Below, in pieces: positions 14,730 to 16,957 of a DNA stretch of 64,000 nucleotides. The translations under genes and the position numbers were made by a program. The first letter of the stretch is position 1, and every line of letters starts with the position of its first letter. A model generated the notes under the pieces. The model had not been told where the DNA came from, did no database searches, and was given only the letters and a program-made list of their open reading frames with translations. This DNA comes from a virus: positions 124,001 through 188,000 of IMG/VR virus record IMGVR_UViG_3300035703_000006. One strand, given 5' to 3'.

Positions 14730-14976
14730 TAAAGTCAAGGAAGAATTAAATAGCAAATTTTTATGTCCTCAAAAATTTGCTCAAGATATAGAAAGCATCG
14801 TAAAGAATTCAAAGATTAACTATATTGATGCAATAGTTACTTATTGTGAAGAAAATAGTATTGAAATTGAAACAATATCAAAATTAATTTCAAAACCATT
14901 AAAGGAAAAAATTAAGAATGATGCCACCCAATTGAATTTTTTGAAAAAAACTACTCGTGCTAAATTGCCATTGTGA
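14722..14976 (+). CDS. gp33: Late transcription co-activator gp33
   Basis: An 84-residue protein from ATG 14722. In T4, gp33 bridges host RNA polymerase and the gp45 sliding clamp so that late promoters fire on replicating DNA. The identification rests on the C-terminal half, ISKLISKPLKEKIKNDATQL, then NFLKKTTRAKLPL, which I recognise from cyanophage gp33, and on the order gp33-gp59-(DUF1825)-gp32, close to the T4 32-59-33 cluster. Longer upstream extension of the frame is unlikely because it overlaps the exonuclease. It overlaps gp59 by four bases. Confidence 0.8.
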   Translation: MNDKVKEELNSKFLCPQKFAQDIESIVKNSKINYIDAIVTYCEENSIEIETISKLISKPLKEKIKNDATQLNFLKKTTRAKLPL

Positions 14977-15563
14977 CTCCTTTTGATGTTTATAAAACTT
15001 ACTTAGCATTTAAAAATCATTTCACAAAAGAAAATTACGATTACTTCAAGTATTGTGGAAAGTCCAGAGCATCTTTGGACTCCTTTCATAAGAGGAAGGA
15101 TAGATATTTTTTTGAACGAACTTCTAGACAGAAGAATGACGAAGAAATTAAGGCATATTTTGTCGCAAATTTTGTTGAGTGTGATGATCCACAATCACTT
15201 TGGATTGGTGAAATTATCAAATGTGGAGAAGATGTTTTTTCTGATTGGTTAAAAAAATCTCAATCAATGACTTATTTGTTTAAAGAAGAAATAGAGAGCA
15301 TTTTTACAAAAGAAAATTTTGAAAAAATGTTTGATATAAGTGCAAATTGCCATCCAGAAATATTAAAATTATATTTTTCTAAAGAATTATCTTTAGAAAC
15401 AATGGTTATACTTGATATGATTCTTGAGTATGTAAAGAGATTTGATAAAAAACTCACTGATCCAGTGTGGGAATCCGTAAGTTTAAGAATTAAAAAATAC
15501 AAACCTTTTCTAAATATAGATGTAGATAGGTATAAAAAAATTCTGAAGGAGAACGTATTATGA
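14973..15563 (+). CDS. gp59: DNA helicase loader gp59
   Basis: A 196-residue protein with a GTG start (14973) inside the gp33 stop (GTGA). It begins TPFDVYKTYLAFKNHFTKENYDYFKYCGKSRAS and SFHKRKDRYFFERTSRQK, the conserved N-terminal DNA-binding region of T4 gp59, which loads the gp41 helicase onto gp32-coated forks and recombination intermediates. The remaining all-helical part (SWIEIIK..., LETMVILDMILEYVKRFDKKLTDPVW) also fits. Length is slightly below T4 gp59. The non-ATG start may limit synthesis relative to gp32. Confidence 0.9.
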   Translation: MTPFDVYKTYLAFKNHFTKENYDYFKYCGKSRASLDSFHKRKDRYFFERTSRQKNDEEIKAYFVANFVECDDPQSLWIGEIIKCGEDVFSDWLKKSQSMTYLFKEEIESIFTKENFEKMFDISANCHPEILKLYFSKELSLETMVILDMILEYVKRFDKKLTDPVWESVSLRIKKYKPFLNIDVDRYKKILKENVL

Positions 15564-15892
15564 GTAGATTTTTTGATTCAGATGTGGTCAGAGAATCATT
15601 GAAAGAACTTGATGATCTTCAGAAAGAAATTTTTCATGAGATGTTTGAACTTCCTTTTTTTAGTAAAGAAAAGAAAAAAGAACATCTCGGTAAGATGAAA
15701 TTGTTTCTAGAGAAACAGAAAAATTTTATTTTTAGAATTTCTTTATCAGATGATCCAGACGCAATAGAAATGAAAAATACAATTCTTGAATCAGCACAAA
15801 TGTTTGGTATTGGTCCAGTCAATAATGTGTCTATATTGTTTGAAAAAATGGAAAAATCTATTGACGCTCTCGAAAAGTCTCTTGACGATTGA
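15560..15892 (+). CDS. DUF1825 family protein
   Basis: A 110-residue all-helical protein with the DUF1825 build: it starts SRFFDSDVVRESLKELDDLQKEIF and continues SKEKKKEHLGKMKLFLEKQKNFIFRISLSDDPDAIEMK, followed by a Gly-Pro-containing C-terminal segment. The family is confined to cyanobacteria and their phages and has no known function. It starts four bases inside gp59 and its 3' end carries the -35 box of the gp32 promoter. Its place inside the replication cluster hints at a role in DNA metabolism (inference). Confidence 0.75.
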   Translation: MSRFFDSDVVRESLKELDDLQKEIFHEMFELPFFSKEKKKEHLGKMKLFLEKQKNFIFRISLSDDPDAIEMKNTILESAQMFGIGPVNNVSILFEKMEKSIDALEKSLDD

Positions 15893-15910
15893 TTCGTTGC
15901 CTGCTACAAT
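15882..15910 (+). promoter_or_regulatory. gp32: Strong sigma70-like promoter for gp32
   Basis: TTGACG (15882-15887), a 17-base spacer, and TACAAT (15905-15910) match host-type promoters closely. It lies 46 bases before the gp32 ATG, partly inside the previous gene, allowing early and strong gp32 expression. Confidence 0.75.
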
Positions 15911-15955
15911 TAATACGTACAATACGTCTCAATACTACTAATACGGAGAATACAA
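15911..15955 (+). promoter_or_regulatory. gp32: gp32 leader with repeated AATAC, possible autoregulatory operator
   Basis: The 45-base leader contains AATAC five times (around 15912, 15921, 15931, 15940 and 15948) and no stable hairpin can be drawn; GGAG precedes the ATG. T4 gp32 represses its own translation by coating an unstructured leader, so this could be the equivalent target. The function is inferred. Confidence 0.45.
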
Positions 15956-16900
15956 ATGTCCTTTGCTGATCTTAAAAAGCAATCCAAGATGGGTTCTTTG
16001 ACCGAGAAACTCATCAAACAAGTAGAAAAATTGAATGAAAGTGGTTCCAAAGATGATGATCGTTTTTGGAAACCCGTGATGGATAAAGGTGGTACTGGTT
16101 CCGCAATTATTAGGTTTCTTCCTGCTGCTGAAGGTAATGATCTTCCTTGGGTGCAAGTGTGGTCTCACGCATTTCAAGGCACTGGTGGTTGGTTGATTGA
16201 TAATTGTCTCACTACTCTTGGTCAACAATGTCCTGTTTGTGAGGCTAATCGTGAATTGTGGAATACTGGAAGTAAGGATAATCAAAATATTGTTCGTGAT
16301 CGTAAACGTAAACTTTCATATTTTGCAAACATTTATGTCGTAAAAGATCCTGCCAATCCTGCAAATGAAGGTAGAGTATTCCTTTATAAGTTTGGCAAAA
16401 AAGTTTTCGATAAGATTACTGCAGCAATGCAACCTGAGTTTGATGATGAAGAACCAATCAACCCCTTTGACTTTTGGAAAGGAGCAAACTTCAAACTGAA
16501 ACTGGTCAAGAAAGATGGATATTGGAACTATGATAAATCAGAGTTTGCTTCACCTTCAATTCTTCTTGATGATGACGATGAACTTGAAAAAATCTATAAG
16601 TCTCTTCATAATCTGAATGATTTTACTGATGCATCTCAATTCAAGTCATATGATGATTTGAAAAAACGTCTTGAGTATACTTTGGGTCTTCGTGGTGTTC
16701 CTAAGATGCAAGATCCAGAAACTATCGATGAAGAGGAAGAGTGGAACAATGAAAGAAGTGGTAAAACATCTTCTTCTGAACTTCCCAGCAATCTTCGTTC
16801 CGAATTGAATAGTTTGAGTTCTAGTAAATCTTCTAGTAGTGAAGATGATGAAGATGAGGACGATGCTCTCTCATACTTCCAAAAGTTGGCAGAGTCCTGA
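15956..16900 (+). CDS. gp32: Single-stranded DNA-binding protein gp32
   Basis: A 314-residue T4-type single-strand binding protein that coats DNA in replication and recombination. It begins SFADLKKQSKMGSLTEKLIKQ, the basic cooperativity region. The zinc site is visible: His71 (WSHAF), Cys84, Cys92 and Cys95 (CPVC), in the same order as His64/Cys77/Cys87/Cys90 of T4. The oligonucleotide-binding core continues to ~235, and the C-terminus (from ~245) is a Ser-rich, acidic tail (DDEDEDDALSYFQKL) that in T4 recruits partners such as gp59. It has its own promoter and a strong terminator, so it can be expressed apart from the upstream operon. Confidence 0.96.
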   Translation: MSFADLKKQSKMGSLTEKLIKQVEKLNESGSKDDDRFWKPVMDKGGTGSAIIRFLPAAEGNDLPWVQVWSHAFQGTGGWLIDNCLTTLGQQCPVCEANRELWNTGSKDNQNIVRDRKRKLSYFANIYVVKDPANPANEGRVFLYKFGKKVFDKITAAMQPEFDDEEPINPFDFWKGANFKLKLVKKDGYWNYDKSEFASPSILLDDDDELEKIYKSLHNLNDFTDASQFKSYDDLKKRLEYTLGLRGVPKMQDPETIDEEEEWNNERSGKTSSSELPSNLRSELNSLSSSKSSSSEDDEDEDDALSYFQKLAES

Positions 16901-16927: not shown

Positions 16928-16957
16928 TACCCTCGAAAAAATCGGGGGTATTTTTTT
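16928..16957 (+). terminator. Rho-independent terminator after gp32
   Basis: TACCCTCGA pairs with TCGGGGGTA (one G-T pair) around an A5 loop, followed by seven T. It separates gp32 from the convergent minus-strand genes. Confidence 0.9.

Follow-up and report, generated by a model that had tools for sequence, protein, structure and literature searches.

A periodic AATAC array before gene 32 of a virus related to cyanophages as a candidate translational operator

In phage T4, gp32 represses its own translation: passages of PMC535899 and PMC3014915 describe that the protein nucleates on a pseudoknot and spreads over UUAAA/UAAA repeats across the ribosome-binding site, and that repression requires both elements. 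A passage of PMC535899 calls it unclear how gp32, which is made to bind ssDNA of any kind, recognises its own mRNA, and also leaves open whether gp32 of pseudoknot-less T4-like phages such as RB49 binds or represses its own message; according to a passage of PMC3014915, gp32 control in a range of T4 relatives should be studied more thoroughly. Gene 32 of the virus investigated here is preceded by a regular AATAC pattern, which an earlier, sequence-only reading had proposed to be the cyanophage form of the T4 operator. The question raised by this locus is whether the repeats can be read in that way.

Gene 32 and its upstream region

The window, the whole stretch of DNA that was analysed, comprises 64,000 nucleotides (positions 124001-188000 of a 247,112-base virus record). 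The gene 32 product matched Pfam PF08804 (E 1.2e-49), PHROG 224 (E 4.7e-119) and gp32 chains in the PDB, and its three cysteines (C-x8-C-x2-C) aligned to the T4 zinc site. Because the best DNA matches among named records were Synechococcus and Prochlorococcus phages and marine single-cell viruses, the label cyanophage is applied by kinship. The features of the region are listed in Table 1; the hairpin behind gene 32 precedes oppositely oriented genes.

Table 1. Features around the start of gene 32, in window positions
Feature	Positions	Strand	Remark
gp59-like helicase loader gene	14973-15563	+	upstream of DUF1825 gene
DUF1825 protein gene	15560-15892	+	upstream of gene 32
-35 hexamer TTGACG	15882-15887	+	overlaps 3' end of DUF1825 gene
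Extended -10, TGC-TACAAT	15902-15910	+	17-nt spacer to -35; TG at 15902-15903, TACAAT at 15905-15910
AATAC unit 1	15912-15916	+	directly after -10, probably discriminator
AATAC unit 2	15921-15925	+	
AATAC unit 3	15931-15935	+	
AATAC unit 4	15940-15944	+	just 5' of Shine-Dalgarno
Shine-Dalgarno GGAG	15945-15948	+	in spacer between units 4 and 5
AATAC unit 5	15949-15953	+	ends 2 nt before gp32 ATG
Gene 32, gp32 ssDNA-binding protein	15956-16900	+	314 aa, ATG at 15956
Terminator-like hairpin with T run	16928-16950	+	directly 3' of gene 32

The five AATAC units reported for the 45 bases before gp32 (15911-15955) were confirmed, with a unit-to-unit spacing of 9, 10, 9 and 9 nt (mean 9.25). The last two units flank the GGAG, and the array runs over the gp32 ribosome-binding site. 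The maximum number of AATAC per 45 nt in the window was five on the + strand, in the gp32 leader, and three on the - strand, and none of 300 order-1 Markov simulations of 64 kb gave more than three. AATAC-N4-AATAC occurred five times in the window compared with 0.25 expected, and three of the five were located in the gp32 leader. The minimum free energy (MFE) of the segment -45..+12 was -4.3 kcal/mol, which ranked 22nd among 48 window genes (z about 0), and for 15916-15975 185 of 200 shuffles folded at least as well. The earlier description of the leader as unstructured is thus weakly borne out, the value being unexceptional for the genome.

The promoter motif TTGACG-17-TACAAT was read at 15882-15910 exactly as it had been described. 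With 10 of 12 consensus matches plus the TG and a hexamer spacing within 16-18 nt, the match alone is unremarkable, since the 1.7 kb scanned contained seven promoter-like sites compared with 6.8 expected. What makes the gp32 promoter credible is its conservation in all 42 distinct leaders of the nearest set and in 70 of 75 cyanophage representatives (sets described below), compared with 22 of 415 control genes, where the search span was 80 nt for gp32 leaders and 70 nt for the control genes. The host-type promoter is therefore significant through its conservation and not through the consensus alone. From the usual distance between -10 and transcript start, the 5' end of the gp32 mRNA would lie near 15917, giving a predicted leader of about 39 nt. 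As the -10 ends at 15910, unit 1 is probably part of the promoter discriminator, which would leave four units in the RNA. The 45-base leader with five units is accordingly correct as a DNA layout and probably not as an RNA.

Conservation of the array in related leaders

The nearest set consisted of the gp32 leaders of 80 related IMG/VR loci, of which 42 were distinct; 18 of the 80 were left after merging those at least 80% identical, and the related sequences are not independent of one another. At least two AATAC were found in the last 55 nt of 39 of the 42 distinct leaders. The number of units was 0 in one leader, 1 in two, 2 in six, 3 in four, 4 in nine, 5 in 19 and 6 in one. Among the 122 gaps between successive AATAC in these leaders, 82 were 9 nt, 15 were 10 nt, 16 were 18-20 nt and nine had other lengths; a gap of 18-20 nt is a missing unit on the same 9-10 nt lattice. 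The last unit ends 2 nt before the ATG in 34 of the 41 nearest leaders with a unit. At the other end, 41 nearest leaders have an AATAC/AATAT unit downstream of the -10, and the array starts 1 nt after this hexamer in 25 of them. The distance from -10 to ATG was 43-45 nt in 24 of the 42 leaders and 53-56 nt in 14, so that leader length changes in steps of about one unit.

Thirty-one leaders with their last unit at -7..-3 were aligned on this unit, which is hence fixed by the selection of the leaders. In all 31 the second-last unit (-16..-12, unit 4 of the window) was invariant, as was the GGAG. The unit at -25..-21 (unit 3 of the window) showed a column entropy of 0.35-0.55; in the spacer 3' of it three of the four columns had values of 1.28-1.44 and the fourth was an invariant A. 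Spacers varied among the near leaders (TACT, AATT, AAAA, TCTC, TTCC, GTAC and others). The units were conserved while the spacers drifted, and the lattice of 9-10 nt holds. These results bear on ancestry alone as an explanation, in which the leader was inherited without function. Many of the leaders are indeed close relatives, as their reduction by merging illustrates, but simple inheritance does not predict that units and period are kept where spacers have drifted, nor that a period of 9-11 nt extends over representatives with gp32 proteins less than 70% identical and with different units. We regard ancestry alone as highly improbable.

The same leaders allow a DNA-level operator to be weighed, at which a transcription regulator would bind the repeats on double-stranded DNA just 3' of the promoter. 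Operators are commonly built from direct repeats of about 10 bp, and the short distance between -10 and array in the 25 leaders mentioned above would suit this arrangement. However, steps of exactly 9 nt (L002 and L005) or of 9.25 nt on average (the window) drift from the helical phase of 10.5 bp, and it is the start codon, not the promoter, to which the array end is fixed, the promoter distance being variable. In addition, two loci with one common leader (L011 and L013) have unrelated upstream sequence with an unrelated promoter and have kept the last three units. A double-stranded DNA operator is quite unlikely, given this loss of helical phase with 9-nt steps and the anchoring of the array on the start codon.

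The wider cyanophage sample was composed of named phages and of loci found with the Bellamy and syn9 gp32 queries, and yielded 76 gp32 representatives with less than 88% protein identity. P-TIM40, whose leader has two AATAC units, was left out of the counts, since the gp32 start annotated for it is upstream of the likely one. The leaders showed the same layout, with AATAC, AATCC or AATCT as the unit. At least two AAT(A/C)(C/T) units were present in 71 of the 76 leaders and at least three in 46, compared with 25 and one, respectively, of 415 control leaders of other genes. Here and in the other control sets (the 48 window genes, the genes ranked below and the ORF leaders of the lag analysis) starts were taken from a simple longest-ATG caller that places some wrongly, and a few genes in overlaps between stretches of the window's genome (G000) may count twice. 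Alignment of gp32 leaders, the check put forward together with the sequence-only reading, thus found the units conserved across cyanophages, and the contrary outcome of non-conservation did not occur.

By unit type, 28 of the 76 representatives were pure AATAC, 23 pure AATCY and 20 mixed, and five had fewer than two units. When unit type was placed on the gp32 tree, pure AATAC required 10 changes compared with 23.0 after shuffling (none of 500 as low), and the AATCY label 14 compared with 20.1. The mixed label showed no clustering (18 changes compared with 17.8). For the 51 pure rows alone three changes suffice, and the 12-row gp32 clade of the window is pure AATAC. Units within a leader also resembled one another: sameness in 154 leaders was 0.636 compared with 0.404 when units were permuted between leaders, and the effect was weaker in 23 representatives (0.557 compared with 0.402 ± 0.052, largest permuted value 0.595).

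Several minor observations were made in this sample. The zinc-site cysteines were found by motif in 13 of the 76 representatives, only in the clade of the window and in L076; the other cyanophage gp32s shown carry S/D/S or S/D/A at these positions. Leaders of the 13 cysteine-retaining gp32s have 3-5 units, and 52 of the 63 others have 2-3. A relation between cysteine retention and unit number is suggestive and was set aside, as only about two lineages are involved. The annotated gp32 start of P-SSM2 (L087, AY939844) looks too late, with a MSFAKLKKQ start 75 nt upstream (L415:1943), and that of P-TIM40 (L088, KP211958) looks too early, with a MSFASLKK start 45 nt downstream. In the syn9/S-RIM2 group (L084, L085, L086, L174-L190) the -10 of the gp32 promoter lies within an inverted repeat, GCTAC-N9-GTAGC. 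The symmetry of this repeat seems to be kept, because L183 and L188 have GTTAC...GTAAC instead, a matched change on both arms. A CTAAATA late-type motif adjoins this inverted repeat in several leaders.

Specificity for gp32 and the operator reading

Pairs of the form AATAC-N3-6-AATAC were no more frequent in the window's genome than in the reversed control (13 each), and overlapping pairs, which mark arrays of at least three units, occurred there only at gp32. Three-unit AATMC arrays were present in nine of 14 other records, with 21 matches compared with none in the reversed control. Seventeen of the 21 lay just before gp32, at least one in each of the nine records, and the remaining four were single matches elsewhere, in G003, G004, S-SCSM2R and Bellamy. 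In 12 non-cyanophage records a three-ATAC pattern gave 12 matches and its reversed control four; specificity for gp32 is weaker there, because six of the 12 matches lie elsewhere and six before gp32. Leaders of called genes were also ranked by their self-matches at lags 9-11. The gp32 leader was first among 245 in G000, 62 in G002, 61 in G010, 71 in G012 and 39 in G014, first among 56 and 58 in 60 kb each of P-SSM2 and S-SCSM2R, and tied first in 60 kb of ValKK3 (60 genes).

This clustering is relevant to two further explanations. The A-rich, weakly paired leader could act as a translation enhancer that recruits ribosomes through a standby or S1 site, with the repeats as a by-product and no feedback. 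The protein is needed in large amounts, and gp32 leaders tend to be less structured, with a mean MFE of -3.06 in 47 representatives compared with -5.13 in the 48 window genes. An enhancer, however, predicts neither a fixed period of 9-10 nt nor a lineage-specific unit, and it should recur at other highly expressed genes, whereas the gp32 leader was first or tied first in all eight records ranked. The window's own leader, moreover, is of ordinary stability. We consider an enhancer unlikely.

The array could also be the operator for another RNA-binding repressor of the phage, above all RegA. The same genome encodes RegA (G000:C1:74935-75297, E 6e-45), and a passage of PMC3014915 describes A+U-rich start regions without structure as its targets. 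According to the same source RegA acts on many mRNAs, however, whereas the overlapping AATAC pairs of G000 are found at gp32 alone, the gp32 leader ranks first of 245 and the element is not seen at several early genes. A RegA operator is therefore very unlikely.

We consider it rather probable, by analogy with T4, that the AATAC array is the autogenous translational operator of the cyanophage gene 32, a pseudoknot-less relative of the T4 operator at which gp32 protomers would block the ribosome. The proposal of the sequence-only reading is supported by the conserved units, by their clustering at gp32 and by the way in which they embrace the Shine-Dalgarno sequence; the step from there to an operator is taken by T4 analogy. 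From a host sigma-70-type extended -10 promoter, gp32 would be transcribed with a leader of about 39 nt. The four AAUAC units of this leader, spaced by 9-10 nt and with the Shine-Dalgarno sequence between the last two, would be preferred seats for gp32. As long as free ssDNA is present, gp32 would occupy it and the mRNA would be translated. Upon gp32 excess, protomers would sit side by side on the RNA seats, cover the ribosome-binding site and stop translation. The repeated unit and its spacing would confer specificity, in place of the T4 pseudoknot. Passages of PMC10484735 and PMC12893549 give 7 nt and 8 ± 1 nt, respectively, as the site occluded by T4 gp32, so that a step of 9-10 nt could seat one protomer. 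Seating of one protomer per unit would require some slack, because the period exceeds the T4 site size of 7-8 nt.

Like the gene 32 operators of T4, T2 and RB69, the cyanophage array consists of short A+U-rich repeats before gp32 that lie over the ribosome-binding site. It differs in its unit, AAUAC every 9-10 nt instead of UUAAA/UAAA (neither TTAAA nor TAAA occurs in 15911-15955), in the Shine-Dalgarno sequence placed within a spacer and in its own host-type promoter close upstream. The 5' pseudoknot of the T4 operator lies in a region that extends to about 67 nt before the start codon; a leader of the predicted 39 nt, with its start near 15917, would have no room for it. An Rfam search of the window returned only sub-threshold, unrelated families, and the phage T6 positive control was also silent, so that this search has no bearing on the pseudoknot. 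RB49 likewise has a T4-type gene 32 without a recognisable pseudoknot; its leader has kept UUAA/UUAAA units according to a passage of PMC535899 and has no A+U-rich sequence according to one of PMC3014915. The passages on RB49 in these two papers describe no period of 9-10 nt, unlike the cyanophage array. Host-type promoters before early T4-type genes are known from the marine cyanomyoviruses S-PM2 and Syn9, where sigma-70-like early promoters were described (PMC2984593). The window promoter leads straight into the repeat array, whereas the promoter passages of that paper mention no repeats.

A gp32 autogenous operator is a known kind of element. In the literature searched, which was mostly titles and abstract openings with subscription journals largely outside, no gp32-leader repeats were described outside T4 and phages closely related to it. 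A periodic array that lacks a pseudoknot and has lineage-specific units is a form that did not appear there. The cyanophage array is a small (about 39 nt), pseudoknot-free candidate. Its many relatives offer natural variants in unit number, sequence and spacing, which makes the question of gp32 mRNA specificity directly testable. If the operator reading is true, the array would show how an ssDNA-binding protein gains RNA specificity through repetition.

Periodic leaders outside the cyanophages

Further loci were collected with the gp32 queries of ValKK3 (60 loci) and Moby (80 loci) and their leaders were read. Many had other units with a similar period, such as ATACAACRC in L324, CGCAATATAA in L313 and ATAC in L225. 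Lag analysis was performed on 352 leaders, from 340 of 351 IMG/VR loci, 11 named phages and the window; L009, whose match starts at residue 10, and ten further loci without an ATG near the match or with less than 60 nt upstream were excluded. In 47 leaders chosen at 70% protein identity, 4-base self-matches at lags 9, 10 and 11 were 4.3, 3.9 and 3.3 times the shuffled level (z 11.0, 9.2 and 7.1) and fell to near background at lags 8 and 12 (1.5 and 1.4 times expected). Leaders of 70 other ORFs from the same loci gave 1.1, 1.0 and 0.9 times at lags 9, 10 and 11. Two further controls were not wholly flat. Self-matches in the stretch -108..-60 reached 1.8 times the expected level at lag 10 (z 2.1). 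At the beginning of the gp32 coding sequence (first 48 nt) they were 2.2-fold over expectation at lag 11 (z 2.7) and 5.5-fold at lag 12 (z 10.1), the latter peak perhaps being codon-phased. Coverage by self-matches in 46 leaders was 0.30-0.51 at -45..-11 compared with 0.12-0.13 in shuffles; it was slightly raised at -90..-46 (0.15-0.26) and 0.04 at the start codon.

Taken singly, 20 of the 47 representatives reached p<0.05 (27 had p>=0.05), compared with 3% of the 70 controls. By set, these were three of seven cyanophage leaders, nine of 25 from the ValKK3 set and eight of 15 from the Moby set. Eight named phages were held out: one each of Acinetobacter, Campylobacter and Sinorhizobium, and five Ackermannviridae. 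None of the eight leaders reached p<0.05, and their summed lag band was 6 compared with 5.6 expected; the leader of one hold-out, KARL-1, is nearly identical to that of L245, which was already negative. A periodic leader as a feature of all T4-like phages was rejected on the basis of these signal-free hold-outs. Together with the patchy single-leader p values they indicate that the periodic gp32 leader is near-universal in the cyanophage sample and occurs patchily in other phages, with some lineages of T4-like phages in which it was not detected.

A broader reading, which we hold only tentatively and consider doubtful as it stands, is that many T4-like gp32 operators are periodic registers, in which a lineage-specific unit would recur every 9-11 nt and each copy would seat one protomer of an ssDNA-binding protein that is otherwise indifferent to sequence. 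The unit would change and the spacing stay, and recognition would proceed by repetition and register and not by a pseudoknot. The units would be AAUAC/AAUCY in cyanophages, AUACAACGC-like in Moby-like phages and AUAC in the KVP40 type. For the Moby group there was concern that the unit might be a genome-wide element, because a passage of PMC5587285 reports 56 'phage specific promoters' for pf16. This was rejected, as AATACAACG was not abundant, with 15 occurrences in 12 records (present in seven) and 10 in the reversed control. No gp32 was detected by tblastn in 50 kb of pf16. Three of the five Ackermannviridae leaders (L447, L448 and L449) contain an inverted repeat TAGCCC...GGGGC just 5' of the Shine-Dalgarno sequence. 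Five leaders of the Moby group (L287, L291, L299, L300 and L339) are without repeats and carry two GC-rich inverted repeats of the GGGGAGTTCCC type, which are perhaps a different operator.
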